Assembly: GCA_020348925.1 (NCBI GenBank)
Contig: CP070758.1
Location: forward strand, 2,971,415 to 2,990,451
Source of the DNA: Gemmatimonadota bacterium
Lineage (GTDB): Bacteria; JBHIER01; G020348925
Length of the DNA: 19,037 nucleotides
Direction of reading: 5' to 3'
Shown here in pieces: positions 1,992 through 17,679 of this stretch (position 1 is the stretch's first letter; each line of letters opens with the position of its first letter). The notes below the pieces were generated by a model. It was not told the DNA's origin. It saw only the letters and a program-made list of their open reading frames with translations, and searched no databases. The position numbers and the translations under genes were made by a program.

Positions 1992-2405
1992 ACTCCTATC
2001 GAATGTACCTGAATGTGCATGGATGTGCAAAACAGAAAGGAGGGATGGGTACGATAACGGTCCTATGCATGGAAATCATGTGTAGAGTAGGGATGATCTC
2101 TTTCGGACGTTCCTCGAATTTCCGAAAGGGAGAGAGATGTTTGAGGTTCCGAAGGAATTCGGGGCTTCATATGGTAACGGCGAAGCGATCCGGTCGAGTG
2201 GAGGATCGCCAAGCGCCGGAGAATCGGTTTTCAGAGAGAACGGTTGAAAAATGGACTGAAAAACACCCGCAGGCGAGTAGCCGGGTTATGACAAAACGAT
2301 ATGCTAACCTACCTACTTGTCCTACCAAATGTTCCGCATTTTCCGCTATTGTTCCCTCTTTGGCGAAAGCCTGCGGTGTTTTTCAAACCTGAGGAGGTAA
2401 ACGGC
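1992..2405. other. Structured leader of the repeat-protein gene, possibly with a hidden ORF
   Basis: These 414 bases hold no recognisable gene. They contain strong potential RNA structure: a hairpin at 2096-2138 (TTTCGG with CCGAAA, flanked by ATCT/AGAT), a two-part hairpin at 2178-2218, and a weaker one around 2267-2292 (ACCC/GGGT with GGC/GCC inside). I compared it by eye with common riboswitch signatures (c-di-GMP, cobalamin, TPP, SAM, glycine) and did not find their conserved cores. A 134-codon + strand frame (1988-2392) overlaps the previous stop as ATGA and ends 13 bases before the next start codon, but has no good ribosome binding site and no recognisable domain. Confidence 0.45.
2178..2218 (+). 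promoter_or_regulatory. Strong hairpin in the 5' leader
   Basis: CGGCG (2178-2182) pairs with CGCCG (2214-2218), and GCGATCC (2185-2191) pairs with GGATCGC (2203-2209). This gives 12 perfect base pairs around a small internal loop (AA against CAAG) with an 11-base apical loop. It has no T-tract, so it is a leader structure rather than a terminator. Role unknown. Confidence 0.45.
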
Positions 2406-5400
2406 ATGAAGGCTCGATTGATTTTGAACATTCTTATTTTACTCGTCGTGACGGTTCCCCTTGTCTCGGTTCCGTGCTATCCCCACGAGGGGAACACCTT
2501 TGCCACGAAAATATCCAAGGTGAAATGGATGATGATCTCCCAGAGCAGAGAGAATTTGTTTGGGACGACAGAGGGTGGAGCCATCACGGGAAAAGTATAC
2601 GCAGACAATTCCGACGATGAGGGGGAGCCGATTCGGGAGGCCTGGGTTGTGGCCACGCTGTCACCGGACGGTGAACCGGTGGGCTGGGCGCTCTCAGGTT
2701 GGAACGGGACATACCTCATCGCCGGACTGCCGTCTGGAGAGTACTTTCTCCAGGCTTCGTCTCCGGGATTCATTCCGGAGTTTTTCGACGACGCCATAGA
2801 GCCACGCGAGGCGACCCCGGTGGAGGTGTCGGATGAGGGCACTGTGGATGATATCGATTTTCATTTGGCCCATCACGGCCAGCATCACGGGGAGGGATCC
2901 ATTTCGGGTTTTGTCATCGATGATGATTCCGGAGATGCCATCGAAGGAGCCCATGTTTTGGCCGTAACCCTCACCACCGATGATCCGGACTCATTGTTCT
3001 GGATGGGTGAGGCTATTACCGGATCCGGAGGAACTTATAAAATCGATGGTCTCATAAGCGGTGATTACATTGTCTCCGTATCCGCCTACCAATACCTGCC
3101 CGAGTATTACGATGATGTCTATACCTTTGAGGAGGCTACGCCCGTCCGCGTGGATGAGCCAAGGAATACGTCGCGCATTGATTTCGGGTTGTCGCAGATC
3201 GAGTCCGGGCGAGGTTCGATCTCGGGCGTGGTACTTGCCGAAACCGACAGCACCATTATCGAGGACGCCTATGTCTCGGCCTATTCACCTGTCTACTCAT
3301 TTCTTCCGGACGTCGTCAGGGTCAAGTCGGACGGGACGTATCGGATCGAGGGATTGATGTCAGGTGACTACTTCGTCGTAGCCCGGGCCCCGAACTACCA
3401 TGCCGAATGGTACGACAATGTCAAGACGGAGGATGAGGCCACCTTCGTACCTGTGACCTCTCCTGATGAGACGCCCGGTATCGATTTTTATCTGGGCCAT
3501 CTGGGCTCAATCTCAGGTCTCGTCACCTCAGAGGCCGATGGGACGCCCATCGCCGAGGCCCTTGTGTGCGCTGTCCCTGTTGGAGATACGGTCTACATCG
3601 ATCCTGATGTGACGAATCCCAATTTCATAGAACCCGGCTTCGCTCCGACGGTTTGGTTTCGATGCGCAGTCACTGACTCGAACGGGGCGTTCGAGTTGAA
3701 GGGTTTGGCTGCCGGCGAGTATTTCGTCGGTGTCTGGGCCCTGGGATTTTTGAACGAGTGGTACGATAATATCAGGAATTTTGAAGAGGCGCATGCTGTG
3801 ACGGTGCTCGAATCCCAGACGACGCCGGACATTGACTTTGCCTTGAGCACAGGTGGATCGATCTCCGGGCGTGTGGTGGTGGCATCCGATGGTCATCCTA
3901 TTTCGAATGGACATGTCTGTGCCATCCCGCTGGCCGATTCGACGTGGATTCCGGGAGGCCCGATCGGGCCGGACGAAACCTTCTGGCCGGATCGGTGGGC
4001 ATGTGGCACAACGGACGATGAGGGGTACTATACGGTGACCGGTCTTGTGACCGGTGAATATTACGTTCACGTCTGGGCGGAGGGGTTCCTGCCCGAGTGG
4101 TACGACGGCGTTCACTTCAGGCAGGATGCCACCCCTGTCGCGGTTACCGAACCGGAGGAGACGTCGGGTATCAATTTTGCCCTGGGCACCGGGGGTTCGA
4201 TCTCCGGCCAGGTGAGATCCGAGGTCGATGATCGACCGATTCCCGACGTGACCGTATGCGTCTTCTCTGTCAGAGACAGTCTGTGGTTTCAGGAGGGGAA
4301 CATATGGCCCGGTTATGATGAGCTTCTTGGTCCCGACATATTTCACTGCGTCAGAACCGACGGGGAGGGACGGTACGAGATCGGCAGGCTCCCCACCGGA
4401 GAGTACTATGTCGTTGCGTGGATGGAGGATTTTCTGCCTGAATGGTTCGACGACGCTCCCGGTTGGAAGGAGGCCACGCCGGTCGCAGTGGTCGATCCTG
4501 AGCAGACGCCTGACATCGATTTTCGGCTGAGCACGGGTGGATCGATCTCCGGTCATGTATTGTCGGGTTCTCAAGGGAGTCCGGTATTCGCCACGGTGTG
4601 CGCCTTTCAGATGAATGGGACTCCCTCCGGCGAGATCGGTTCCTTCGGGACGACCCATTGTACCGAGACGGACGAGCACGGCAGGTACGTGCTCACCGGA
4701 TTGAAATCCGGCACGTATCACGTCGTGGCCCACGCTCGGGGTTATGAGGAGCAGTGGTACGATCATGCGGACACTCAGATAGATGCCACGCCTGTGGAGG
4801 TCGTTGTGCCGGAGGAGACGGCGGGGATCAATTTCACATTGAAAGCGTGGGGTGGTGAGGGCGCAATCAGCGGGCGGGTCGTTGATGAGGGTGATGGTCA
4901 TCCGATTGCCAGGGCTTTGGTTGAAGCCCGCCGGGGCGATGGGTGGTGGACCGGCATCGCGTTGACGCAGGATGACGGTACGTACGTGATTCCGAATCTT
5001 CCTTCCGGCAATTACTTCGTCTCGGTGAGGGCGGAGGGCTATTTTCATGAGTTCTACGACAACGTCCGCAATGCCAAAGACGCCACCTATGTCGAGGTCG
5101 CGGGACCCGGCAGCACGCCGGATATCAATTTCGAATTGACCAAACACCGGCAACAGGGATCCGAAGGCGGTATCGCGGGCTATGTGACTGCTGTGAGTCC
5201 GGAATCCGATACCCTGACCGTTGCGGAAGCCTTCGTCTTCGCGTTTTCCGTGCAACAGAACAGCATCTCCGATCGGAATGACGCTGCCGGGATGGCGGTC
5301 GCAGACGAACGAGGCTATTACGTCATCGAGAATCTGCCTCAAGGTCAGTACGTCGTCATGTGTTTTGCCTCGGGTTTTATCGGTGAGCTGTACGACGATG

Positions 5401-6140
5401 TTCTCAACCCCAAAGACGCCACACTCGTCAGAGTTCTTCCGCCGGATGTCACCCCGGGCATCGACTTCGAATTGTCGGCTGTTGCATGGGAGGGCGGCGG
5501 ATCGATTTCCGGAACCATCTATGAGGCGGACGGCGCGACCCCTGTCTCGAATGTGTGGGTCTATGCCCTCGATAGAAACTCTCGCCCGGTCGCTTGGGAT
5601 CAGACCGGTCCGAACGGGACCTATGTTCTGAGCGGCCTGGCCCCTGGCCAATACACCGTGCAGGCGTCGGAGGTCGCCAACGGTGTGGCCAGATCAACCT
5701 ACTGGGCAGGCTCGGACTCCGACGGCGTGGATACCTTTGAGGAATCGGAACCTGTTGATGTGGGACCGACGGTTTTTTCAGGTGTGGACCTGGTTATGAG
5801 AGAATCCACCTTGACGGGCGTCGATGATGATACCGCGCCGGATGTGATCCCTGAGGGTTTCGCCCTGGAGCAAAACCGTCCCAATCCCTTCAATCCGACG
5901 ACTGATATCCGGTATGCCGTGGTCAGTCAGCAATCCCAGGGACATGTCAGCCTTAAGGTCTATAACCTTTTAGGGCAGGAGGTGCGGACGCTGGTGGATG
6001 AGCTCCAGGAATCCGGGCACTATACCGTCACCTGGGATGGTCGGGATAACACCGGGGGACGTGTGGCCAGCGGGTATTACTTCTGTCGGCTTCAGGCAGG
6101 AACGTATGCTGCGACCATTAAAATGATTCTTATGAAGTAG
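2406..6140 (+). CDS. Large surface protein: ten carboxypeptidase-regulatory-like repeats plus T9SS-type C-terminal domain
   Basis: A 1244-residue protein. The signal peptide covers about residues 1-24. Ten beta-sandwich repeats (CarboxypepD_reg/Cna-B type) begin near residues 58, 165, 271, 368, 485, 598, 713, 820, 922 and 1033. Each runs 'GSISGxV ... PIxxAxVxA ... GxYxIxGLxSGxYxVxxxAxGYxxEWYD ... ATPVxV ... TxxIDFxL' and leads straight into the next. Residues 1152-1244 are a FlgD-Ig-like/T9SS-type CTD (LEQNRPNPFNPTT ... GQEVRTLVDE ... TWDGRD ... ASGYYFCRL). No catalytic residues are evident; such rods usually serve adhesion or display, and this role is inferred. Repeats 4-7 alone carry a conserved Cys pair. 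The start at 2406 follows GAGGAGGT (2391-2398) and opens on the signal peptide; the frame extends upstream to 2301 without a binding site. Confidence 0.9.
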   Translation: MKARLILNILILLVVTVPLVSVPCYPHEGNTFATKISKVKWMMISQSRENLFGTTEGGAITGKVYADNSDDEGEPIREAWVVATLSPDGEPVGWALSGWNGTYLIAGLPSGEYFLQASSPGFIPEFFDDAIEPREATPVEVSDEGTVDDIDFHLAHHGQHHGEGSISGFVIDDDSGDAIEGAHVLAVTLTTDDPDSLFWMGEAITGSGGTYKIDGLISGDYIVSVSAYQYLPEYYDDVYTFEEATPVRVDEPRNTSRIDFGLSQIESGRGSISGVVLAETDSTIIEDAYVSAYSPVYSFLPDVVRVKSDGTYRIEGLMSGDYFVVARAPNYHAEWYDNVKTEDEATFVPVTSPDETPGIDFYLGHLGSISGLVTSEADGTPIAEALVCAVPVGDTVYIDPDVTNPNFIEPGFAPTVWFRCAVTDSNGAFELKGLAAGEYFVGVWALGFLNEWYDNIRNFEEAHAVTVLESQTTPDIDFALSTGGSISGRVVVASDGHPISNGHVCAIPLADSTWIPGGPIGPDETFWPDRWACGTTDDEGYYTVTGLVTGEYYVHVWAEGFLPEWYDGVHFRQDATPVAVTEPEETSGINFALGTGGSISGQVRSEVDDRPIPDVTVCVFSVRDSLWFQEGNIWPGYDELLGPDIFHCVRTDGEGRYEIGRLPTGEYYVVAWMEDFLPEWFDDAPGWKEATPVAVVDPEQTPDIDFRLSTGGSISGHVLSGSQGSPVFATVCAFQMNGTPSGEIGSFGTTHCTETDEHGRYVLTGLKSGTYHVVAHARGYEEQWYDHADTQIDATPVEVVVPEETAGINFTLKAWGGEGAISGRVVDEGDGHPIARALVEARRGDGWWTGIALTQDDGTYVIPNLPSGNYFVSVRAEGYFHEFYDNVRNAKDATYVEVAGPGSTPDINFELTKHRQQGSEGGIAGYVTAVSPESDTLTVAEAFVFAFSVQQNSISDRNDAAGMAVADERGYYVIENLPQGQYVVMCFASGFIGELYDDVLNPKDATLVRVLPPDVTPGIDFELSAVAWEGGGSISGTIYEADGATPVSNVWVYALDRNSRPVAWDQTGPNGTYVLSGLAPGQYTVQASEVANGVARSTYWAGSDSDGVDTFEESEPVDVGPTVFSGVDLVMRESTLTGVDDDTAPDVIPEGFALEQNRPNPFNPTTDIRYAVVSQQSQGHVSLKVYNLLGQEVRTLVDELQESGHYTVTWDGRDNTGGRVASGYYFCRLQAGTYAATIKMILMK

Positions 6141-6252
6141 GACTCCTTGTCAGAAAGGCGGTCTGAAATGATGAAGGAGGAGAGGAACGGAATATGCATG
6201 GATGGTGCATCTTCGAAGGAGTCCCACAAAAATAAATCTCTCCTCCTTCATC
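6141..6252 (+). repeat. Structured intergenic element, copy 1
   Basis: This lies directly after a CTD gene. GATGAAGGAGGAGAG (6170-6184) and CTCTCCTCCTTCATC (6238-6252) form a perfect 15-bp inverted repeat around 53 bases. A second pairing, GACTCCTT (6141-6148) with AAGGAGTC (6216-6223), interleaves with it, so the two stems together would form a pseudoknot. The loop also holds ATGCA/TGCAT. The block GGTGCATCTTCGAAGGAGT is nearly repeated in copy 2. There is no T-tract after the 3' arm. Confidence 0.6.
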
Positions 6253-6348
6253 TGCCACAAGAGCAGGACGGGTGCAATCTGTGCGGCACCGTGTCTGGAT
6301 TTCTTCTCGGACGGAAAGGTTTTTAACGGAGGAAAGGAGGTGTGAGTT

Positions 6349-7158
6349 ATGTTTCAGAAGTTTCCTCCCTTCGATGTGATGAACAGAGTTTTCGTTGTTG
6401 CCGTTGGTCTGCTGTTGACCTTCCCAGTCCTTCTGGGCGCAGTCGGATCCGGAGACAGGGCGGTCGTGGAGCTTTCTTCGAGCGAGGTACGAACCGATCT
6501 GTCCGTGAGGACAGTTCAGGTTCCGGTGGCTGTCTCGAACACGAAGGTTATGGCGGGCGTCCAGCTCTCTGTGAAGTTCGATACCGAAGGCATGGTTCCC
6601 GGGGAACCGGAGTTGACGGCTCGCAGTGCAAGCATGTCGATCGCCTCCAATTCGAAAGACGGCGAGATGGTTGTTCTGCTGTACAGCACCGATGGAAAAG
6701 GTATTTCCCCCGGTGACGGACCGATCGTGTCGCTCTCTTTCGCCATCATGGATGGGATGGATGCAACAGGCGCGATCCGATTGGAGAAGGTCATCTTGGC
6801 CAGCCCGGAGGCCACAGCTCTTCCTGCTGTCGTCAGGCCAACGACGATATCCGTTGGGTCGCGGACGCCCACCCGTTATGACTTGACCCAGAACTATCCC
6901 AATCCCTTCAATCCGACAACCAGTATTCGGTATGCGGTGGTCGGTGATCAGTCCCCCCCGCACGTTACCCTGAAGATCTATACCGTGCTCGGGCAGGAGG
7001 TGCAGACGCTGGTGGATGAGCCGCAGAAATCGGGGTACTACACGATCGATTGGGATGGGCGAGACCAATACGGCGCACAGGTAGCGAGCGGTATCTACTT
7101 CTGCCGGCTCCGGGCCGGAGACTATGCGGCCACCATCAGGATGGTCCTGATGAAATAA
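6349..7158 (+). CDS. Cohesin-like domain protein with T9SS-type C-terminal domain
   Basis: A 269-residue protein. The signal peptide covers about residues 1-33. Residues 37-165 resemble a cohesin domain: 'VRTVQVPVAVSNTKVMAG' then 'VQLSVKFDTEGMVPGEPE', later 'GEMVVLLYSTDGKGISPG' and 'GPIVSLSFAI', which is the usual order of strands in cohesins (extracellular dockerin-binding beta-sandwiches). Residues 177-269 are a CTD (DLTQNYPNPFNPTTSIRY ... GQEVQTLVDE ... DWDGRD ... ASGIYFCRLRAGDYA), the same length as that of the upstream repeat protein and very similar to it. The start has an ideal ribosome binding site (AAAGGAGGTG at 6333-6342). Four dockerin proteins are encoded just downstream, making this a natural scaffold candidate. 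The cohesin call rests on pattern only; a related carbohydrate-binding beta-sandwich is the main alternative. Confidence 0.75.
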   Translation: MFQKFPPFDVMNRVFVVAVGLLLTFPVLLGAVGSGDRAVVELSSSEVRTDLSVRTVQVPVAVSNTKVMAGVQLSVKFDTEGMVPGEPELTARSASMSIASNSKDGEMVVLLYSTDGKGISPGDGPIVSLSFAIMDGMDATGAIRLEKVILASPEATALPAVVRPTTISVGSRTPTRYDLTQNYPNPFNPTTSIRYAVVGDQSPPHVTLKIYTVLGQEVQTLVDEPQKSGYYTIDWDGRDQYGAQVASGIYFCRLRAGDYAATIRMVLMK

Positions 7159-7650
7159 GGATCGCTGCTCGGACTTGTTGAAACTGCGGGTGAAGGGGGA
7201 GAGACATGGGATGGGGATCGAAGGTGCGTCTTCAAAGGAGTTTCATGAAGACGATCTCCTCCTTCATCCACTCCTGGGGCTCGAGGGTGGAAGCGGCTTT
7301 GAATGATTGAGAGGCATCTTGGAAAAGTTCCTGCGGGTTCCGAACCAGCATGTTTTGAGTCTGACTGCCAATGCGGCAACAGGTTTCACGATGAGAAGGG
7401 TTCCTTTATCGTCAAGTATCTGACACATATTCGGGTGAAATCCATGATACATCACTGTGCAGTTTGAAAGGAGCTCGATAATTGACCATCCATCCAGCCA
7501 GCGCGTTGGAACGAAAAACAGAGGAGGTACGATTCCCAAACGATAATTGGCCAAAATTCGAACGGCAGAGACCATAATCAACATGAAGCATAAAAATCAG
7601 AGGGTGTTTCTTTGAGACCTTTTGAATACTGAAGCGGGGAGGTGCGCACC
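7159..7650. other. Intergenic region upstream of the DUF3160/dockerin cluster
   Basis: These 492 bases begin with the second copy of the structured element (7179-7269). Beyond 7270 I see no gene, no transposon end and no clear promoter: a TTGACC around 7482 has no matching -10 box. A 106-codon antisense frame (7264-7584) has no recognisable features. Given the long gap, the promoter of the downstream cluster is probably here. Confidence 0.5.
7179..7269 (+). repeat. Structured intergenic element, copy 2
   Basis: GGGTGAAGGGGGAGA (7188-7202) pairs over all 15 positions with TCTCCTCCTTCATCC (7255-7269), using 13 Watson-Crick and two G-U pairs; the two differences from the copy 1 arm therefore keep an RNA stem. 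TGAAACT (7179-7185) can pair with AGTTTCA (7239-7245), giving the same interleaved order of arms as in copy 1 with unrelated sequence. GGTGCGTCTTCAAAGGAGT corresponds to the central block of copy 1 with two changes in 19 bases. It follows the second CTD gene, at a similar position to copy 1. Confidence 0.6.
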
Positions 7651-10644
7651 ATGACGAGACCGAGTTGGTTTTTTGCAGGGCTTCTCATTGTGATTCTCGG
7701 CCTGTTCTGTGTGAACAGGATACCGGCCCAGGACATGATTGCCGATATTACCGAAGATGTGGAGACCGAGTTCGGGACATATCATCCATTTCTTGTGGAG
7801 ATCGAGCCCGCCGCTGAGCCGTATACGGTCGAGCCCGATTTCAGCAATGTGGTCAATTTCTCGGACTTCGGCTTCACTGCTGTCGAAGAGAGTCTTCTGT
7901 CGGCCCACTATTTTGTCGTCTCGCCGACTCGGCATGACGGGGGGTCTGGCTACAAGGAGATATACGATATCTATAATGAATGCAGGGAGCAGGACGTGCC
8001 CATATTTGTCACCACGGACGCCATGCTCCATACCTTTCATCTGCTCTTCGACAGGATCCTCAAGACCATTGAAACGAAGCGCCTGTTCGTTGATCTCCAG
8101 GGGCTCCTCGGGGCGCTCTTCTTTGAGACGTTGAACCAGTACGGGGCTGCCCAGGATGCCTCCGTTCGAGCCGCCCTTGAACGGAACATCGATTATCTCA
8201 TCGTCGCCGCCTCGCTGCTTGATTCGACATACGATGCGGGGAGCTACGGGATCGTGTATCAGGATGAACTCGACCTTATCGCCCAGCATGCAGGTTTTGA
8301 AACTTCGCCCATTTTCATGTACGATGAGGATTACAGTCAGTATATCCCGCGGGGTCATTATACCGACAGCGATTCGCTCCGGCACTATTTCCTGTCCATG
8401 ATGTGGCTCGGGCGCATGACCTTTGATGCCGAGGCGCCGGAACCGACGCGCAGCGCCGTTCTCCTGGTCCAGGCTCTGGACAAGGCGGCCGCGAATATTA
8501 TTCCGGCGTTGGCGCTCTGGGAGCGCATCTACCTGCCCACGGTCTTCTTCGTGGGCAAATCCGACGATATCAATTTTTATCAGTACAAAGAGTTGGCCGT
8601 GCAGGTCTATGGTTCGGATTTTGCCAACCTGGTGCCGGACGATTTTGCGGATGAGGCCAAGCTCGAAGCGTTTCTCGAACTCGCCGAGGATCTCCCCGAG
8701 CCCGGCATTACGTACCCCGGTCAGCCCAGCAAGGGTTACCGTCTCATGGGCCAGCGCTTCATTCCGGACTCCTACGTTTTGGATCACATGGTCATGCCCT
8801 ACACCGGACGAATGATGCCCAAAGGTCTCGATGTCATGTCGGTCTTAGGATCGGCCCGGGCCTGGCAGATTCTGGACGAGGTCTACCACGATCTTGCTGC
8901 GGATCAGTTGATGAATTTGAAAGCCGAGTTCGAGGCCTATCCGGATTCGGTCTGGGCTCAGAACGTCTACTGGAACTGGCTCTACTCATTGATGCCGCTC
9001 CTGTTTGAGAAAGGGCAGGGTTTTCCGCCGTTTATGCAGAACCAGGCCTGGACGGACAAGGAGTTAAACGACGCGCTCGGTTCGTGGGCCGAGCTGCGGC
9101 ACGATACGATTTTATATGCCAAGCAAGGCGGCTGGGAGAGCGTTCCCCCATACTCCGGTTTGGTGCAGGGCTATGTGGAACCCAATCCGTACTTTTACGC
9201 CCGCTTGGCCTCCCTCGACGATCTCATGATCACCGGCCTGGAGGATCAGGGGCTGCTTTTTCCACGTTTTGAACCGAGTCTCACCTCGCTCAAGGAGTTG
9301 TTGCTGACACTGAAGACCATCTCTGAAAAGGAGCTGACCAATCAGTCTCTGACGTTTGACGAGTACGAAGTCATCTGCAATATCGGCGAGACCATTGAGA
9401 CAATTGTTGAATTCGAGACGTGGACGGAAGGCCCCGGCCCGAACAACGAGGAGATGCCGGTCATCGCCGACGTCCATACGGATCCTCTGAGTGGCACCTG
9501 TCTGGAGGAGGGTGTTGGCTATCCGATGAATATCTACGTCATCTGCGATGTCGAGGGGGAGCTGCGGCTGACGCGAGGCGCGGTGTTTTCGTACTACGAG
9601 TTCGAGTGGCCGCTCAACGATCGTCTCACGGACGAGAAGTGGATTGAACTGCTTCAAGGCGAAGATCCCCCTGCACCGCCCATCTGGACCGCCAGTTTTC
9701 TGGACTATTCGACGAACTGGGGCAACCCAGATCCTCGTTTCTATTACTGGCAAAAGCAGGGATTGGTCGGCGTTGTGGCGACGGTTGAAGGCGAGGAATT
9801 TACCGTCGGTGATATGGTGAGTATCCGAATTCGCTCCTCAAGTCCCTTCGCTGAGAGCCCGGCGGTTGCAATTTTCCCGAGTACGGGGGATCCCTTCAGC
9901 CTGACGGATATTCAATCGGAGGGTGACGATTTTCTTGCGTATCTCAATACGTCCGGGATGAGTCCCGGCGAAGTCGGAGTTTATGTGACAGCGGAGGTGG
10001 GGCAATACGAAACGACGACAATCTCCTATCGAACGAAGTTTTTGCTTCATCCGGGGGTAGACATCAAGGGTGATGTGAGTGGTGACGGGCAGATCGATAT
10101 TCAGGACGTCGTATTGACGGTCAACATCGTCCTCAATACACTGGAGCCCACTCCGGAGCAATTCTGGGCGGCCGATTGGAACGATGACGAGGGGATCGAT
10201 ATCTTGGACGTGGTCGGTTTGATACGATTCATTCTCGGTATTGGGGACAGGACCTTTGTGGATTTTGAAGATGTCGAAGACTACGGGAACTTTTGTGTTA
10301 TCCCAAAGGGAACTGCCGTAATAACCTCGGATTCGGAGTGGACGAACCTGTGGGAGCTCTACTGGAACGTAACCGACGGCTATGGGAACAAGACACCGCC
10401 CGCGGAAATCGATTTTGATGAGGCGATGGTCATCGGGGTGTTCTGGGGTGGCGGATGCATCTATTCCGGCTGCACAAATCGGAGCCCGTCAATCGGGTCG
10501 GTCTGGATTGCGAGCGATACCCTGCGGGTCAGCGTGGGCGAGATGGAGGATCTCGGGCCGTGTGACGCGTGCGTCTGTCCGCTGCATTTAATAAAAACTC
10601 AGAAATTGAATCTGCCGATACAATTCACGGGAGAAGTGCCATGA
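7651..10644 (+). CDS. DUF3160 protein with dockerin and C-terminal PrcB-like domain
   Basis: A 997-residue protein. Signal peptide 1-26 (IPA|QDM). Residues 27-685 form a DUF3160 core with its hallmark blocks: TTDAMLHTFH (121-130), YSQYIPRGHYTDSDSLRHYF, MGQRFIPDSY, KGLDVMSVLGS, YWNWLYSLMPLL, WAELRHDTILYAKQ (from 479), VEPNPYFYARL, ADVHTD (His609), EEGVGYP and FSYYEF. The biochemical role of DUF3160 is unknown to me. An Ig-like segment (about 700-800) precedes a type I dockerin at 807-863 with two intact calcium loops (DVSGDGQIDIQD, DWNDDEGIDILD). Residues 868-997 resemble the PrcB C-terminal domain (SDSEWTNLWELY, IDFDEAMVIGVFWGG, final hydrophobic strand), but carry added cysteines (GGCIYSGC, CDACVC). 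The dockerin is therefore internal, which is unusual. The start at 7651 follows GGGGAGGTG (7635-7643); a GTG at 7642 lies within that site. It is the first gene of a probable five-gene operon. Confidence 0.88.
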   Translation: MTRPSWFFAGLLIVILGLFCVNRIPAQDMIADITEDVETEFGTYHPFLVEIEPAAEPYTVEPDFSNVVNFSDFGFTAVEESLLSAHYFVVSPTRHDGGSGYKEIYDIYNECREQDVPIFVTTDAMLHTFHLLFDRILKTIETKRLFVDLQGLLGALFFETLNQYGAAQDASVRAALERNIDYLIVAASLLDSTYDAGSYGIVYQDELDLIAQHAGFETSPIFMYDEDYSQYIPRGHYTDSDSLRHYFLSMMWLGRMTFDAEAPEPTRSAVLLVQALDKAAANIIPALALWERIYLPTVFFVGKSDDINFYQYKELAVQVYGSDFANLVPDDFADEAKLEAFLELAEDLPEPGITYPGQPSKGYRLMGQRFIPDSYVLDHMVMPYTGRMMPKGLDVMSVLGSARAWQILDEVYHDLAADQLMNLKAEFEAYPDSVWAQNVYWNWLYSLMPLLFEKGQGFPPFMQNQAWTDKELNDALGSWAELRHDTILYAKQGGWESVPPYSGLVQGYVEPNPYFYARLASLDDLMITGLEDQGLLFPRFEPSLTSLKELLLTLKTISEKELTNQSLTFDEYEVICNIGETIETIVEFETWTEGPGPNNEEMPVIADVHTDPLSGTCLEEGVGYPMNIYVICDVEGELRLTRGAVFSYYEFEWPLNDRLTDEKWIELLQGEDPPAPPIWTASFLDYSTNWGNPDPRFYYWQKQGLVGVVATVEGEEFTVGDMVSIRIRSSSPFAESPAVAIFPSTGDPFSLTDIQSEGDDFLAYLNTSGMSPGEVGVYVTAEVGQYETTTISYRTKFLLHPGVDIKGDVSGDGQIDIQDVVLTVNIVLNTLEPTPEQFWAADWNDDEGIDILDVVGLIRFILGIGDRTFVDFEDVEDYGNFCVIPKGTAVITSDSEWTNLWELYWNVTDGYGNKTPPAEIDFDEAMVIGVFWGGGCIYSGCTNRSPSIGSVWIASDTLRVSVGEMEDLGPCDACVCPLHLIKTQKLNLPIQFTGEVP

Positions 10645-10778
10645 AAAAAATTTCCCTGTATCCCTCCTTCGACAAGCTCAGGGCAGGCTCTTTGAAAAAG
10701 GGGGATGCTATGAGTCCCCTCCTTTTACAAAGGAGGGCCAGGCAGGATTGTTTCTTTTCTAAAGGAGGAGACAGATGA
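10641..10778 (+). CDS. Doubtful 45-codon ORF made largely of dispersed-repeat sequence
   Basis: The frame starts ATGAAAAAAATTTCC, overlapping the stop of the DUF3160 gene as ATGA, and ends in a TGA that overlaps the ATG of the next gene, again as ATGA. The translation (MKKISLYPSFDKLRAGS ... FSKGGDR) contains the 'SFDKLRAGS' and 'FSKGGDR' strings that typically arise when common intergenic repeats are translated, so it is probably not a functional protein. It may act as a coupling leader or be the remnant of a small gene overwritten by repeats. No own ribosome binding site is visible. Confidence 0.2.
   Translation: MKKISLYPSFDKLRAGSLKKGDAMSPLLLQRRARQDCFFSKGGDR
10662..10750 (+). repeat. Composite of two dispersed intergenic repeats with a GGAGG-sequestering hairpin
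   Basis: Unit 1 (10662-10690) contains CCTTCGACAAGCTCAGGGCA, a motif I recognise as a widespread dispersed intergenic repeat in bacterial genomes. Unit 2 (10716-10750) is centred on a perfect 9-bp hairpin, CCCTCCTTT (10717-10725), TAC loop, AAAGGAGGG (10729-10737), followed by CCAGGCAGGATTG. The 5' arm is also complementary to the real ribosome binding site of the next gene, AAAGGAGG at 10761-10768. AGGGG (10699-10703) can pair with CCCCT (10716-10720) as an alternative fold. Confidence 0.6.
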
Positions 10779-11596
10779 ATCGACACAGTTCAGCAAAGTT
10801 CTTCGCTGTGGTCACACTCTTAGTGACGAATATGGTTTTGATCGTCACCCCAATGAGCATATGGGCTCTTGAAAAGAGAGCCGCTCATAATGAATCCCCG
10901 GCTTCCTACTATCCGCTTCAAGTGGGCAACAGCTGGACCTTCTCTGATGTCGAGGATTTTACGGAGACGATCGTTGATACGCAACGCATCAGTCAAGAAT
11001 TGTACTTCGAATTTGATCAGGCGAGACATTTTCCGGGGGTTCTTTTCCGGATGTCGGAGGACAGGAAACTCATGATGCTCACGGGTGGCGCGGAGCAGGT
11101 CTGGCTCGATTTTTCGGCTGAGGTGGGCGATACGTGGAATGTCGCAATCCCTGGTGGCGAGCGGTGGCTTGTTCATCTTGAGAGCACCGAGGATACTGTT
11201 TCGGTTCCCGCCGGGACTTTTACGAAGTGCCATTGCTTCTGGTTCGAATTTGAAGGTGCAGACAATGACTGGGTGGAATGGTATGCCCCCGGTGTAGGAC
11301 CTGTGAAACGAACCTTACTTGGTTTTGGAGTTATTGAGTATCCGTTACAACGTGCAATCATCGACGGCGTTGCGATACCGGGATTGAAGGGCGATGTGGA
11401 CGGTAACGGCGTTCTGGATGTGAGCGATGTCATGCTTGTCGTGAACATCATCCTCGGTCTGTTGGAGCCTAAGTCCGATCGATTCTGGGTTGCCGACTTG
11501 AATGAGAATGGTGTCATAGACATACTTGATGTCGTGGATCTTGTGAGATACATTTTGGGGGAAGAACCTAAGATGTCAAGGAGAATGCTGAAGTGA
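10775..11596 (+). CDS. Secreted dockerin protein with 'YYPLxVGNxW' N-terminal domain
   Basis: A 273-residue protein. The signal peptide covers about 1-31 (IWA|LEK). Residues 43-190 form a beta-rich domain with the pattern YYPLQVGNSWTF ... VSVPAGTFTKCHCFWFEF ... EWYAPGVGPVKR, which I know as a recurring secreted domain of uncultivated bacteria without an assigned function. A type I dockerin occupies 206-262, with loops DVDGNGVLDVSD and DLNENGVIDILD; Asn replaces Asp at position 5 of each loop, which is compatible with calcium binding. A short basic tail (MSRRMLK) follows. The ribosome binding site is AAAGGAGGAG (10761-10770). It sits 130 bases after the first DUF3160 gene and 42 bases before the second, so it is probably co-transcribed. 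Confidence 0.85.
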   Translation: MNRHSSAKFFAVVTLLVTNMVLIVTPMSIWALEKRAAHNESPASYYPLQVGNSWTFSDVEDFTETIVDTQRISQELYFEFDQARHFPGVLFRMSEDRKLMMLTGGAEQVWLDFSAEVGDTWNVAIPGGERWLVHLESTEDTVSVPAGTFTKCHCFWFEFEGADNDWVEWYAPGVGPVKRTLLGFGVIEYPLQRAIIDGVAIPGLKGDVDGNGVLDVSDVMLVVNIILGLLEPKSDRFWVADLNENGVIDILDVVDLVRYILGEEPKMSRRMLK

Positions 11597-11638
11597 GATG
11601 ACCCGCCATTCAAAGAATTCAAAAGGAGGTCTATCATA

Positions 11639-14122
11639 ATGGTTCTCTTGAGAAGGATTCATCATAATGCGACGTGCGTTGTCGTAATCGGCTTCGTCTT
11701 TTGCTCGACTGTTCTGGGCCAAGGGATGATTGCCGACATTACCCTGGATGTGGCGACCGAATTCGGCACGTATCGTCCTTACCTCGCTGATTTCTCGCCC
11801 AATGCACCTGAATACACCGTTGAGCCGGATTTGAGCAACGTCGTGAACTACTCAGATGTGGCGTGGAGGCTGGGTGCGGCTGATTCGATATTTCTCCTGC
11901 AAAACCACTTCACGGTGAAAAAGAGCCAGTACAAACAACTGTACGACATATATAATGAATCCACCTGGAATGCTACGCCTATCTTTGTAACGACTGATGC
12001 CGTTCTTCATATCTATCATGTTCTTTACGACGGTCTCCTGTCCAAGATCGAAGTTCAGAAGTTTGTCGAGACGCTGGCCCTTTTAACCGAAACTCTTATC
12101 GATTCTACTGCTTCCCTGCACAGTCAATCGAAAAAACCTGAAACCCGGGAGGCACTGCTTCATAATCTGGCATTCCTGAGCGTGGGTAAAAAACTTTTGA
12201 AAGGGGCTGATGCGTCCGTTCCGGAGATCGTGTCGGCCTTCGTGGATTCCGAACTTGTTCTCATCTCCGACCATGACGGCTTCCATTGCTCACCCGTTCT
12301 GGGTCCTTTCTCGGAGTTGGATTACAGTCAGTTTCAACCGAGGGGACACTACACAAGGAACGATACGCTCGAAGCCTATTTTCAGACGATGATGTGGTAC
12401 GGCTGGACGATCTTTACCATGGAGCCCGAACTGTTCGGAGAATTGGCATCACGCCATACATTACAGGCGCTGCTTCTGGTTCAGATGCTTTATGCGCTTG
12501 AATCGAATGGTTCGACTCAGGTGGAATTGTGGGGGAGCATCTACGAATCCACCGTCTTTTTTGTGGGCAAGACCGACGATCCGAATGTCCGGGATTACAG
12601 GAATATTGCTGACATGATTTATGGGTCTGACTTTCTCAGCCTCCCTCCGGACAGTCTGGCCGATGCCTCCCTTCTGGAATCCTTCATGACCGAGGCCCAA
12701 AAGCTGCCGGAACCGGCCATCCCAAACTGGATCTACGGGACGTTTCTTACGTATAAGGGTTTTCGTTTCATGGGACAGCGGTTTATCCCCGACTCCTATA
12801 TGTTCGCCCGTCTTGTGCTGCCTGAGGTCGAAGGCCGTCTTTTCCCAAAGGGGTTGGACGTTATGGCCATTTTGGGGTCGGAGAGAGCTTACACGCTCCT
12901 GGATTCTTTATACGAAGAGACATCCTATCCCAATTATTCCCCAAGAATGACTGAGTTCAAAACTGAGTTTTCGAACAAACCGCCTGAGGAATGGGCTCAG
13001 AATCTGTATTGGAACTGGCTCTACTGTCTTATGCCGCTGCTTTACACAAAGGGAGCGGGCTATCCTTTCTTTATGCGGACCCTGGCATGGGCGGACAAAG
13101 AGCTCTTGACCGCCTTGGCCTCCTGGGCCGAGCTACGACACGATACGATTCTCTATGCCAAGCAGAGTATGAGCCCGTGCGGTATTCCCCCGGGACCTCC
13201 GAAAAGTTATGTGGAACCAAACCCCCATCTGTACGCTCGGTTGGCCAGCCTTGTCCGGTACACTCGCGAGGGCCTTCATTCCAGAGATTTGCTTTTGGAA
13301 GAATTTCGTGAGAAGCTCGAGCTGTTTGAAACACTGCTCCTCTTCTTGAGGGATATTTCCATCAAAGAGCTGGAAAATATTCCTCTCTCCGCAACTGAGT
13401 ATGAAAACATCTTTTGTTTTGGCCGGCTTCTGGAGTTTCTCGTCTCCGATAGTCAGGATCCGCAACACCTCTGGGACGCAAATACGGAGGATATGGCTGT
13501 CGTTGCCGATGTCCACACGGATTCCAACACGGATCAATGTCTGGAGGAGGGGGTTGGTTATCCGCTCGAGATTTTTGTCATTGTTCATGAGGGCGGGATA
13601 ACCCGAATCACTCAGGGTGCTATCTTTTCCTACTACGAATTTCCCCAACCCATCGCCGAGCGATTGACCGACGAAACCTGGCGGGAGATGCTGACCGGAG
13701 ATGCCCCGCCCCCAATGCCAGAATGGGTTTCCAGTTTTATGGACGTGGAGGCGTCTCAGCCGGCTTTTGCTCAGCAGTCCCCGGACAATCTTTATCATCA
13801 CGAATTCACCTCCGTGGGAACAGACGAAATCCATGCGATTCCAGGAGAGATCCGGCTCGTGCAAAATTACCCGAACCCGTTCAATTCAGAGACGATGATT
13901 CGCTTTGACCTCGTCGGTGATTCCCATGTCAAGCTCGTCATTTACAATATCCTTGGTCAAAAAATACGAGTGCTTTGGAATGAGCAATGTATTTCTGGGA
14001 CTCATACCGTCAGATGGGACGGTAGAGACTCTTCGGGTCAGACCCTGCCCAGTGGAGTGTACTTGGTCAGAGTAGAGGCGGAAGCATACGTCCAAACGAA
14101 CAGGATGGTGCTTCTGAAATAG
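11639..14122 (+). CDS. DUF3160 protein with T9SS-type C-terminal domain
   Basis: An 827-residue protein. The signal peptide covers about 1-27 (VLG|QGM); the mature start QGMIADIT is nearly the same as in the other two DUF3160 proteins here. The DUF3160 core spans about 28-703 with all family blocks: TTDAVLHIYH, YSQFQPRGHYTRNDTLEAYF, MGQRFIPDSY, KGLDVMAILGS, YWNWLYCLMPLL, WAELRHDTILYAKQ, VEPNPHLYARL, VADVHTD and FSYYEF. A linker leads to a CTD at 738-827 (RLVQNYPNPFNSETMIRF ... YNILGQKIRVLW ... VRWDGRDSSG ... SGVYLVRV). It has no dockerin and no Ig-like segment, unlike its neighbours, and its core is the most divergent of the three. It is presumably exported and surface-attached or released through the CTD. 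The start at 11639 follows AAAAGGAGGT (11621-11630) with an eight-base spacer. Confidence 0.9.
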   Translation: MVLLRRIHHNATCVVVIGFVFCSTVLGQGMIADITLDVATEFGTYRPYLADFSPNAPEYTVEPDLSNVVNYSDVAWRLGAADSIFLLQNHFTVKKSQYKQLYDIYNESTWNATPIFVTTDAVLHIYHVLYDGLLSKIEVQKFVETLALLTETLIDSTASLHSQSKKPETREALLHNLAFLSVGKKLLKGADASVPEIVSAFVDSELVLISDHDGFHCSPVLGPFSELDYSQFQPRGHYTRNDTLEAYFQTMMWYGWTIFTMEPELFGELASRHTLQALLLVQMLYALESNGSTQVELWGSIYESTVFFVGKTDDPNVRDYRNIADMIYGSDFLSLPPDSLADASLLESFMTEAQKLPEPAIPNWIYGTFLTYKGFRFMGQRFIPDSYMFARLVLPEVEGRLFPKGLDVMAILGSERAYTLLDSLYEETSYPNYSPRMTEFKTEFSNKPPEEWAQNLYWNWLYCLMPLLYTKGAGYPFFMRTLAWADKELLTALASWAELRHDTILYAKQSMSPCGIPPGPPKSYVEPNPHLYARLASLVRYTREGLHSRDLLLEEFREKLELFETLLLFLRDISIKELENIPLSATEYENIFCFGRLLEFLVSDSQDPQHLWDANTEDMAVVADVHTDSNTDQCLEEGVGYPLEIFVIVHEGGITRITQGAIFSYYEFPQPIAERLTDETWREMLTGDAPPPMPEWVSSFMDVEASQPAFAQQSPDNLYHHEFTSVGTDEIHAIPGEIRLVQNYPNPFNSETMIRFDLVGDSHVKLVIYNILGQKIRVLWNEQCISGTHTVRWDGRDSSGQTLPSGVYLVRVEAEAYVQTNRMVLLK

Positions 14123-14176
14123 TATATAACATAAGTATCAATGAAAAACTGTTCCTGAAAACGAGGAGTTGTTACG

Positions 14177-16786
14177 ATGAGAGTGAAATTGATGTGTGTT
14201 CTATTCTTCGCTATCCTCTGCCTGTTTGTCAGTGTAGGGTTAACACAGATGATTGCCGATATTACCGAAGATGTGGAGACCGAATTCGGGACGTATCATC
14301 CCTATTTGGTTGAAATTGTTCCGGACGCTGCGCAGTATACGGTCGAACCGGACTTCAGCAACGTCGTCAATTTTTCTGATTTCGGGTTCACCGAGGCGGA
14401 AGAGAGCCTTCTGGCATCACACTATTTCGTCGTGTCACCGGTGAGAGATATAGGCGGTACGGGTTACAAGGAGATATATGATATCTACAATGAATGTCGG
14501 GAGTTTGGGATTCCTATTTTCGTGACCACGGACGCCGTGCTCCACACCTATCATCTCTGCTTCGATAAGATCCTCAAGACAATCGAGCAACAGAAACTCT
14601 TCGGCGACCTGCACGACATGCTGTTGTCTCTTTTCGATGAGACGGTTGCTCAATACGAGGCCGCCCAGGACAGCAGCGTTCGGGACGCTTTAACACGAAA
14701 TCTCAATTACCTCGTCGTGGCCGCGACCCTTCTGGACAGCACCTTCGATTCGGGGATCAACGGCGGTCCGTTCCTGGCAGAGCTCACGCTCATTCAGGAA
14801 CACACGGGCTTTGAAATATCGCCCATTTTCGATTATGCTGAAGATTACAGTCAATATATACCACGTGGGCATTACACCGACTCCGATTCGCTCAGGCATT
14901 ACTTTTTGTCCATGATGTGGCTGGGGCGAATGACCTTCGCCGCGGACCCGATGGAGCCTGAAAGAAGCCGGGAGGCGACCCTCAGCGCGATCCTCCTCCT
15001 CCAGGCCTTCGACCGGACCGATGTTCTTCAGGTATGGGAAAATATTTACCTGCCGACGGTCTTTTTTGTGGGGAAATCGGACGACATCGATTCCTATCAG
15101 TACCTGGACATCGCAGAACACGTTTATGGTGAAGGCTTTTCGGAATTTTCACCGGACAGTTTTTCGGAGCGCTCGTCCTTTGACGAGTTCCTGGATCTGG
15201 CCATGAACCTGCCCGGTCCGAAGATCTCCTATCCGGGACAACCGAAGGGTTTTCGACTCATGGGGCAGCGATTCATTCCGGATTCGTACATTCTCGATCA
15301 ATTGGTTATGCTCTTCACGTCTCGTCTCCTGCCAAAAGGTCTGGATGTCATGTCGGTCCTGGGATCGGACCGGGCGTACGAGATCCTGGATGAGGTCTAC
15401 GGCGAGATGCGCGATCCGGCCTACGTTCAGCAGATGGCCAAGCTGAAAGCAGAATTCGAGGCATACCCTGATAGCATATGGGCCCAGAATGTCTACTGGA
15501 ACTGGCTCTACTCGTTGATGCCGCTCCTGTTTGAGAAGGGTGAGGGCTATCCGCCCTTTATGCAGAACCAGGCCTGGACGGACAAGGATCTCAATGCGGC
15601 CCTGGGATCTTGGACCGAGCTGCGGCATGACACCATCCTCTATGCCAAACAGAGCGGCACCGAGACGAGCATACCGCCGGCGTCGTACCTCGAACAGGGC
15701 TATGTCGAACCCAATCCGTTTCTCTATGCGCGGCTGGCCGCCCTTGACCAGTTGATGATCACCGGATTGGATGATCAAGGGCTCCTCTTTCCCTCCTTCG
15801 GCCAATCTCTGGAGACGCTGCGGGATCTCCTCTTGTCTTTCAAGACGATTTCGGAGAAGGAGCTGACAAACCAGCCGCTGACCGGCGAGGAATATGACGT
15901 CATCTGTAACGTCGGCCTGACCATTGAGGCCATCGTCGAGTTTCAGCCGCCTGAATGGATCGCAGGGCCGATGCCCGATTCGGAGGACGAGATGCCGGTG
16001 GTGGCCGATGTGCACACCGATGCCAATTCCGGACAGGTCCTGGAGGAGGGCGTCGGGTATCCCTTCAGTATATTTGTGATCTGCAATGTCGAAGGTCAGT
16101 TGAAAGTGACGCGGGGAGCGGTCTTCTCCTATTACGAATTTCCCTGGCCGATGAGCGATCGTCTGACCGACGAGGCCTGGATCGGTATGCTCCGGAGTGA
16201 GGAGCCGCCGCAGCTCCCCGTGTGGACCGGCAGCTTTCTCGATCAGAACCACCCGCTGCTGAATGACGATCCCTGGCCCTATATGTGGGGGAAACAGGGG
16301 TACATCAGTGCTGCCGTTACGCTTGATGAGGATCGTTACACCATAGGCGACACGGTGACGGTTCATGTCAGTTCCTATGCCACCATGTCCGCCGAACCGA
16401 CGATTCGGGTCATCGCCCCGGATGGTTCGTCTTTTATGGTGACGGCCCTGTGGGAGGAAGGTGATGGCTACGCCGGGAGGTTCACCACCCAGGGTTTGAT
16501 GACAGGGACCGTGCACCTTGAGAGCGAGATATGTTTTGCCTGGGAACCTCCTGACTGTATCACCTATCGAACCGGGTTCCCCCTCGATCCCGTCGAAGCG
16601 TTGAAAGGGGACATCACGGGTGACGGTGTCGTTGATATTTCGGATGTGATGTTCGCCGTCAATATCATTCTCAATCTTTTCGATCCCGCACCCCTTCAGT
16701 TCTGGGCGGCGGATATGAATGGAGATAGCACGGTGGATGTTTTGGATATTGTCATGATGGTCAATCAGATTCTGGAGGGATTATGA
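14177..16786 (+). CDS. DUF3160 protein with C-terminal dockerin
   Basis: An 869-residue protein. The signal peptide covers about 1-23 (GLT|QMIADIT). The DUF3160 core spans 24-690 and is clearly closest to that of the 7651 gene: the block YSQYIPRGHYTDSDSLRHYF is identical, and a 35-base stretch at the start of the mature region (14249-14283 against 7735-7769) is identical in DNA. About residues 700-805 form an Ig-like segment. A type I dockerin closes the protein at 811-867 (DITGDGVVDISD and DMNGDSTVDVLD). Unlike the 7651 protein, nothing follows the dockerin. The binding site is CGAGGAG (14162-14168). The stop codon overlaps the next start as ATGA, implying translational coupling. Cargo for the cohesin-like protein at 6349 is the natural inference. 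Confidence 0.9.
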   Translation: MRVKLMCVLFFAILCLFVSVGLTQMIADITEDVETEFGTYHPYLVEIVPDAAQYTVEPDFSNVVNFSDFGFTEAEESLLASHYFVVSPVRDIGGTGYKEIYDIYNECREFGIPIFVTTDAVLHTYHLCFDKILKTIEQQKLFGDLHDMLLSLFDETVAQYEAAQDSSVRDALTRNLNYLVVAATLLDSTFDSGINGGPFLAELTLIQEHTGFEISPIFDYAEDYSQYIPRGHYTDSDSLRHYFLSMMWLGRMTFAADPMEPERSREATLSAILLLQAFDRTDVLQVWENIYLPTVFFVGKSDDIDSYQYLDIAEHVYGEGFSEFSPDSFSERSSFDEFLDLAMNLPGPKISYPGQPKGFRLMGQRFIPDSYILDQLVMLFTSRLLPKGLDVMSVLGSDRAYEILDEVYGEMRDPAYVQQMAKLKAEFEAYPDSIWAQNVYWNWLYSLMPLLFEKGEGYPPFMQNQAWTDKDLNAALGSWTELRHDTILYAKQSGTETSIPPASYLEQGYVEPNPFLYARLAALDQLMITGLDDQGLLFPSFGQSLETLRDLLLSFKTISEKELTNQPLTGEEYDVICNVGLTIEAIVEFQPPEWIAGPMPDSEDEMPVVADVHTDANSGQVLEEGVGYPFSIFVICNVEGQLKVTRGAVFSYYEFPWPMSDRLTDEAWIGMLRSEEPPQLPVWTGSFLDQNHPLLNDDPWPYMWGKQGYISAAVTLDEDRYTIGDTVTVHVSSYATMSAEPTIRVIAPDGSSFMVTALWEEGDGYAGRFTTQGLMTGTVHLESEICFAWEPPDCITYRTGFPLDPVEALKGDITGDGVVDISDVMFAVNIILNLFDPAPLQFWAADMNGDSTVDVLDIVMMVNQILEGL

Positions 16787-17415
16787 GAGAGAAGATAATG
16801 CTGCTTGCTGTTATTCTTATTTCCGTTGCCTTTCCCGTTCGTTTTGCCCACAGTCAACTTTCGGGTAATATTGAAACTGGGTTTACCTATTTCAAGGTCG
16901 GAATTCACGAGCAGCCGTCCGTACCCGTATATGAATATACCGTAGCGACCAATGACAGCGAGGTGATAGCCCAGTGTCTGGAGCAATTGTCGTTGCCCGA
17001 GGATCTGCGCGATCTCCATATCAACGGTGCTATCGACTGGGGTGACGGAGGCTTCAATACATCCTGGAGCTGGCATATTGTTCCTGACGACTGGCATCTG
17101 GCCGGAATGTCGGCTGAGGTGTGTGACGGCTCTCCGCAATTTGTCGAGGAAAATCTTGAGTACTGGATCAACGCGGTTGGTCGTTATTGTTGCTATGACA
17201 GTTACATCAAAGGCCAAGTGAAGATTGGTGATGTCAATGGGGACGGTGCCATAGATATCCTGGACGTGATGTTTGTGGTGAACATCATCCTCGAACTGAC
17301 ACAGCCCACACCCGACCAGATCTGGGCGGCGGATTCCAACAATGACGGCGTCGTCGACATTTTCGATATTTTTGGGATAGTTGAAATAATCTTGGGCAAT
17401 GATGGGTTGCAATGA
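16783..17415 (+). CDS. BP74-like domain protein with dockerin
   Basis: A 210-residue protein. Signal peptide 1-24 (AHS|Q). Residues 35-148 match the pattern I know from the BP74 N-terminal domain (named after the Dictyostelium calcium-regulated actin-bundling protein, and present in many bacterial proteins): an early strand VYEYTVATNDSEVIAQCLEQ, then 'HINGAIDWGDGGFNTSWSWH', then 'AGMSAEVCDGSPQFVEENLE' and a Cys-containing end (RYCCYDSYIKGQV). The role of the bacterial versions is not established. A type I dockerin covers 149-205 (DVNGDGAIDILD and DSNNDGVVDIFD), the most canonical of the four here. The start overlaps the previous stop as ATGA, with GGAGG at 16774-16778, so translation is probably coupled to the DUF3160-dockerin protein. 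The BP74 assignment is by eye. Confidence 0.75.
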   Translation: MREKIMLLAVILISVAFPVRFAHSQLSGNIETGFTYFKVGIHEQPSVPVYEYTVATNDSEVIAQCLEQLSLPEDLRDLHINGAIDWGDGGFNTSWSWHIVPDDWHLAGMSAEVCDGSPQFVEENLEYWINAVGRYCCYDSYIKGQVKIGDVNGDGAIDILDVMFVVNIILELTQPTPDQIWAADSNNDGVVDIFDIFGIVEIILGNDGLQ

Positions 17416-17679
17416 AAACCGGACCCGTCCCAAAAAATCTGCATAGAAAAGAGATGTATTGCTCAGTGCATGAATAGAGTCCGGGCTTCTCTCAGCACGT
17501 GGGATGAACCGTGCGTTTCATCGCAGTTTGTGGTACATCCGGTATGCCTGAAGCAATGCAAGGCAGACAGGTGAATGCTCTTCTGTCCAGCCTGCCTTTT
17601 TTCGGCTGAAGTGACGGACAGCGCTCACATTGTCTCAATGATTTTGGTGGCGTGGACGCGCTTCAACAAAGGGGGAAGC
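17416..17679. other. Intergenic region after the dockerin cluster
   Basis: No gene is supported in these 264 bases. They hold the terminator at 17560-17602 and minor inverted repeats (GATGAA/TTCATC around 17502-17522). The promoter of the downstream hydrolase gene should lie between 17603 and 17670, but I see no convincing box; a loose GG-N10-GC match near 17646 departs too far from the sigma-54 consensus. Confidence 0.4.
17560..17602 (+). terminator. Probable rho-independent terminator of the dockerin cluster
   Basis: AGGCAG (17561-17566) pairs with CTGCCT (17592-17597), and ACAG (17567-17570) pairs with CTGT (17583-17586), with a five-base bulge on the 3' side. The stem runs directly into a T-tract (17597-17602). 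It lies 145 bases after the BP74-like dockerin gene and before the hydrolase-like gene, so it is well placed to end the operon. Confidence 0.6.

Follow-up and report, generated by a model that had tools for sequence, protein, structure and literature searches.

A single-cohesin protein with a T9SS sorting domain and four neighbouring dockerin proteins in a bacterial genome with cohesin and dockerin counts of cellulosome scale

The window analysed in the present study was a 19,037-nucleotide stretch of a Gemmatimonadota bacterium genome (contig CP070758.1, positions 2,971,415 to 2,990,451), and the genes described below from 2301 to 17415 of the window lie on the + strand. The 6349 protein (6349..7158, 269 aa) is a secreted protein with one cohesin domain (approximately residues 37–165, 6457..6843) and a T9SS type A C-terminal sorting domain (CTD; residues 183–266, 6895..7146). 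Based on Pfam, NCBIfam and clade membership, it is a candidate surface anchor. Before it lies the 2301 protein (2301..6140, with a start more likely near 2406), in which Pfam and NCBIfam found ten CarboxypepD_reg repeats and a T9SS CTD. The 7642 protein (7642..10644) follows, with a DUF3160 domain, an Ig-like linker, a dockerin (10066..10236) and a 135-aa tail. The 10775 protein (10775..11596) consists of a YYPLxVGN domain and a C-terminal dockerin (11387..11557), and the 11639 protein (11639..14122) is a DUF3160 paralogue with a T9SS CTD (13868..14110, NCBIfam) where the dockerin would be. The 14177 protein (14177..16786) has the order DUF3160, Ig-like linker and C-terminal dockerin (16604..16774), while the 16783 protein (16783..17415) combines a BP74_N domain with a C-terminal dockerin (17227..17370). 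The protein domains were assigned by Pfam, and the dockerins by Pfam and loop alignment. From 10775 to 17415, the genes are separated by gaps of 43 and 55 bases, followed by a 4-base overlap between the start of 16783 and the stop of 14177; given these short gaps, genes 10775, 11639, 14177 and 16783 probably form one transcript. We also observed, at 17575–19140 and running beyond the window end, a secreted alpha/beta-hydrolase-like protein with a weak Peptidase_S9 match and neither dockerin nor CTD.

The original prediction had assigned the 6349 domain to the cohesins from its pattern and had described a T9SS-type CTD behind it. Pfam matched residues 55–141 to Cohesin PF00963 with 25.2 bits against a cut-off of 24.1, and the same domain scored 26.7 bits when the whole genome was searched. 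The window sequence alone gave no match to PDB chains with phmmer. A profile built from 44 cohesins of this genome, with the window cohesin as its first member, found solved cohesins as its best PDB matches (6kgc, 1e-9). The window domain shares a T-x-R-x-x-x-M motif and two glycines with the genome's strongest cohesins. The single-sequence model was all-beta and of low confidence (pLDDT 49.8), and a Foldseek search with it returned cohesins as the six best matches, with E values of 0.02 or worse. The Pfam and profile results confirmed that the domain is a cohesin. The C-terminal region matched TIGR04183 with 33.6 bits against a cut-off of 23 (NCBIfam), Pfam placed a FlgD_ig match at residues 194–251, and a signal peptide was recognised by eye. 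The genome encodes T9SS components over curated cut-offs, including SprA (153 bits), PorU (738 bits) and the PorV family. With a CTD over the cut-off and the machinery in the genome, the 6349 protein is T9SS type A cargo, as predicted. Frames of the PorV family exceeded the cut-off at 14 places, which is many for one genome. A cellulosome scaffoldin has several cohesins and a CBM; according to Pfam, the 6349 protein contains one cohesin and no CBM.

The four dockerins all exceeded the curated cut-off of Dockerin_1 PF00404 (22.9 bits). They scored 29.0 bits in the 7642 protein (residues 809–865), 33.6 bits in the 10775 protein (residues 205–261), 35.5 bits in the 14177 protein (residues 810–866) and 42.9 bits in the 16783 protein (residues 149–196). 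All eight of their calcium loops kept D1, D/N/S/T3, D/N5 and D12, with S or T at position 3 in two of them. These results bore out the earlier description of four proteins with one well-preserved type I dockerin each. The 7642 dockerin is not C-terminal, as 135 residues follow it; this domain (10237–10641) contains several Cys and had no Pfam match. We further compared the window dockerins with a sample of 106 dockerins (L097–L203). Most sampled dockerins had Cys after the second 'AD' and in a C-terminal GxC; both Cys were present in 68, neither in 22 and one in 16 (Fisher p 5e-10). The sequence pattern suggests that this pair is likely a disulfide clasp. All four window dockerins lack both Cys and thus belong to the Cys-less minority (22/106). 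The loop-1 recognition residues were I-Q in 7642, V-S in 10775, I-S in 14177 and I-L in 16783. Position 11 of loop 1 was S or Q in three window dockerins and in none of the other 102, and L in 72 of the 106. In a clade test, the four window dockerins did not group as a clade of their own. A private specificity read from the S/Q residues was dropped, because the four are not a clade and drift is possible. A division into two dockerin types by 'VNH..RAD' versus 'VNI..WAAD' was also dropped, because there were too many intermediates.

DUF3160 matched with E values of about 1e-183 in the 7642 protein and 1e-192 in the 14177 protein (Pfam), the three DUF3160 domains of the window occupy 7885–9690, 11891–13729 and 14393–16228, and BP74_N scored 87 bits in the 16783 protein. 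Two of the three DUF3160 paralogues carry a dockerin, and the third (11639) carries a T9SS CTD and no dockerin. The structural model of DUF3160 was mainly helical with a C-terminal sheet (pLDDT 90.9), and searches for a solved relative gave none that was convincing (best Foldseek E 0.1, best VIA-align 2 Z 5.3). The domain has invariant Asp, Glu, His and Arg residues, which suggest that DUF3160 may be an enzyme.

To place these proteins, we fetched DUF3160 relatives from 67 loci and scanned them with dockerin and cohesin HMMs made from this genome; neither module was found in any of the 67 loci. The relatives from KSB1, Neomarinimicrobiota, Calditrichia, Latescibacterota, WOR-3, Poribacteria and Ignavibacteria mostly had a T9SS CTD at the end, and those of Firmicutes and archaea mostly stopped with the domain. 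The CTD-bearing proteins of KSB1, Neomarinimicrobiota, Calditrichia and others (L030–L057) have the same domain at 44–59% identity, and their linker and neighbours are partly common to the window. The Ig-like linker that joins DUF3160 to the C-terminal module also occurs in the CTD-bearing forms from KSB1 and Caldithrix. Two Neomarinimicrobiota loci (L050 and L045) have a YYPLxVGN protein after DUF3160, there with no dockerin, and in L035 a CarboxypepD_reg-CTD protein resembling the 2301 protein comes after DUF3160. Because the linker and the neighbours occur without dockerins in other phyla, the operon appears older than its dockerins. In KSB1, we also observed three tandem DUF3160 genes, all with a CTD (L031, 9538–18977), like the three paralogues of the window. 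The L030–L057 proteins end in a T9SS CTD, whereas two of the three paralogues here carry a dockerin module, suggesting that in this lineage the dockerin replaced the CTD on two paralogues. Such a swap is the best indirect pointer to a role of the dockerin in surface retention.

The original prediction had called the system minimal and had proposed a count over the whole genome. The genome is a single contig of 5.04 Mb, and the counts came from searches together with fetched stretches of about 1.8 Mb. At least 73 cohesin matches over the Pfam cut-off were found in the genome, with at least 150 dockerin matches among those listed; together with the fetched stretches, the number of dockerins rose to at least 202. 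A sample of 1.14 Mb that had not been picked for cohesins contained 56 dockerins, giving a genome estimate of 248 (95% 183–313). With 73 cohesins and at least 202 dockerins, the system is not one of few modules, and the term minimal was abandoned. Among the matches listed, there were 116 first-look cohesin candidates here against at most 26 in any of 385 other genomes, and a comparison with 40 other genomes gave 72 cohesin matches here against 0–11. The collection searched (386 genomes from across the domain, including this one) contained no relative nearer than the same domain; the DUF3160 relatives and the T9SS suggest a place in the FCB group. The module counts here match the scale of the largest cellulosome described, in which there are 78 cohesins and over 200 dockerin ORFs (PMC5590126).

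These counts would suit an ordinary cellulosome of a cellulolytic bacterium, viewed through an atypical operon, but the sampled cargo makes that explanation very improbable. For 62 dockerin proteins sampled from the genome, the families listed by Pfam included M14, S8, M28, S41, M20 and M23 peptidases, as well as beta-lactamase-like and esterase domains, metallophosphatases and a peptidyl-arginine deiminase (PAD). FG-GAP propellers, thrombospondin repeats and two heparinase-like C-terminal domains were also present. No glycoside hydrolase was found in the window or among the families listed for these 62 proteins. The non-cellulolytic character noted earlier for the window thus holds for the whole sample.

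We next considered whether the 6349 cohesin might form a private local module that specifically receives the four neighbouring dockerins. The genes share one strand and a span of 10 kb, the cohesin gene is flanked by members of a neighbourhood that is conserved elsewhere (CarboxypepD_reg beside DUF3160 in L035), and the lack of Cys and the S or Q at loop-1 position 11 described above would also fit such a module. However, the genome offers about 73 cohesins, and the window dockerins form no clade. Over the whole genome, 19 of 148 dockerins lay 1.5–12 kb from a cohesin, against 23.8 expected from circular shifts (p 0.84), and 77 dockerins had another dockerin within 5 kb, against 37.5 expected. 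Dockerin genes are thus no closer to cohesin genes than chance, and nearness provides no evidence for private pairing; the window looks like an ordinary dockerin cluster that happens to stand beside a cohesin. In addition, the 6349 cohesin belongs, as an ordinary member, to a clade of about 20 cohesins. Taken together, these results made a private module unlikely.

That clade came from a tree of 110 cohesin domains, in which the window cohesin fell into a group of 20–21 with a support of 0.90–0.98. Nearly all members stand directly before a T9SS CTD, and cohesins directly before a dockerin fall outside the group, indicating a class of anchoring cohesins in this genome. Other small single-cohesin members of this class were found at contig positions 2295601, 2626809 and 4503705. 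The order cohesin-dockerin-cohesin-CTD recurs in many larger proteins (contig positions 1135612–1139034, 2082705–2086070, 541266–543134, 3284895–3286634 and others), in which the cohesins preceding the dockerin and those preceding the CTD fall into clades specific to their position; such proteins could serve as connectors between units. A CTD was present on 55 of the 70 ORFs with a cohesin in the fetched stretches and absent from 44 of the 56 dockerin ORFs in the unbiased sample. CTD proteins with tandem cohesins were present elsewhere in the genome. Four consecutive cohesin-CTD genes with 1, 2, 4 and 1 cohesins were observed at contig 2626809–2635763, a candidate for the main scaffoldin locus.

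The fixed position of the pre-CTD cohesins would also fit a structural stalk, and this counts against a docking function. If cohesins and dockerins did not pair at all, the former would be stalks, and the latter would serve as C-terminal tags, stabilised by calcium, for a different route of export or retention. Most dockerin-only proteins stop about 8 residues past the dockerin, and cohesin and dockerin genes do not co-localise, both of which are compatible with such a use. On the other hand, both families are very numerous in one genome, and the cohesin count is far above that of the other genomes searched, among the matches listed. The calcium loops are conserved, and the tandem-cohesin CTD proteins are what would be expected of scaffoldins. 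We therefore regard the absence of pairing as quite unlikely.

The explanation that we favour, and consider probable, is that an old secreted operon was re-tagged with dockerins for a genome-wide, T9SS-anchored and largely non-cellulolytic display network. It builds on the established domain identities, genome counts, T9SS genes, CTD-to-dockerin difference and anchoring-cohesin clade; from these we infer the binding of cohesin to dockerin, the surface location, the direction of the CTD-to-dockerin exchange and which cohesin serves which dockerin. The signal peptide would direct the 6349 protein to the periplasm, and the T9SS would then move it over the outer membrane by way of its CTD, so that the cohesin would stay on the cell surface. 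The four dockerin proteins would belong to a larger set of secreted proteins with dockerin tags, more than 200 in number, which may dock, in calcium, onto the 6349 cohesin and further cohesins of this genome. The operon that encodes the cargo (DUF3160, YYPLxVGN and CarboxypepD_reg) would predate this arrangement; in other phyla of the FCB group, its DUF3160 proteins would reach the surface by their own CTD. Counted against the display network are the margin of the window cohesin, just 1.1 bits over the cut-off, and the low confidence of its model. Also counted against it is that it provides no route over the outer membrane for the dockerin proteins that lack a CTD (44/56 ORFs in the unbiased sample). 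A more far-reaching version, rather unlikely in its entirety, would be a phylum-level lineage whose secreted proteome is built on a T9SS-anchored cohesin-dockerin network of largest-cellulosome size with no cellulolytic cargo. In that version, dockerins would have replaced the CTD on ancestral cargo, CTD-less cargo would perhaps be exported in complex with cohesin-CTD carriers, and cohesin-dockerin-cohesin-CTD proteins would cross-link the layer.

The system was compared with three known ones. A CTD-anchored scaffoldin with dockerin-bearing peptidases has been proposed for Ca. Stygibacter of the Cloacimonadota (PMC8542988). That complex resembles the system studied here in that its anchor is a cohesin protein with a CTD of T9SS type, that peptidases are among the cargo and that proteins with signal peptides carry C-terminal dockerins. 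However, Ca. Stygibacter has a single large scaffoldin that combines tandem cohesins with CBMs, as well as GH18/GH57 enzymes, whereas at least 73 cohesins are spread here over dozens of proteins, with single-cohesin anchors and more than 200 dockerins. Its tandem cohesins and CBM2/CBM3 are absent from the 6349 protein, and the cargo here comprises DUF3160, YYPLxVGN and BP74 proteins, with no GH family among the sampled families listed. The planctosome of Nemodlikiaceae (Planctomycetes, PMC6461901) is likewise a non-cellulolytic cohesin-dockerin complex with peptidase cargo and an adaptor bearing both cohesin and dockerin, but it uses a lamin-tail-domain anchor and few modules, in contrast to the T9SS CTD and hundreds of modules here. 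The cellulosome of Pseudobacteroides cellulosolvens (PMC5590126) is comparable in size and in its separate cohesin classes for anchoring and integrating. It is clostridial and cellulolytic with CAZyme cargo, whereas here anchoring would be by T9SS and cellulolytic cargo was not seen in the sample.

The kind of system is thus known, since CTD-anchored cohesins and peptidase cargo have already been proposed for Ca. Stygibacter and the planctosome. What is new is the size in a non-cellulolytic genome, in a lineage whose relatives in the collection searched are no nearer than domain level, together with the single-cohesin anchors, the proteins of the order cohesin-dockerin-cohesin-CTD and the CTD-to-dockerin exchange. 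Cohesin-dockerin assembly is known chiefly from cellulose degraders. If the display network is real, a non-cellulolytic genome with a cellulosome-scale, T9SS-anchored assembly would widen the uses of the cohesin-dockerin pair. The DUF3160 paralogues of the window, of which two carry a dockerin and the third a CTD, would offer a natural comparison for asking if a dockerin can substitute for the sorting domain of the T9SS.
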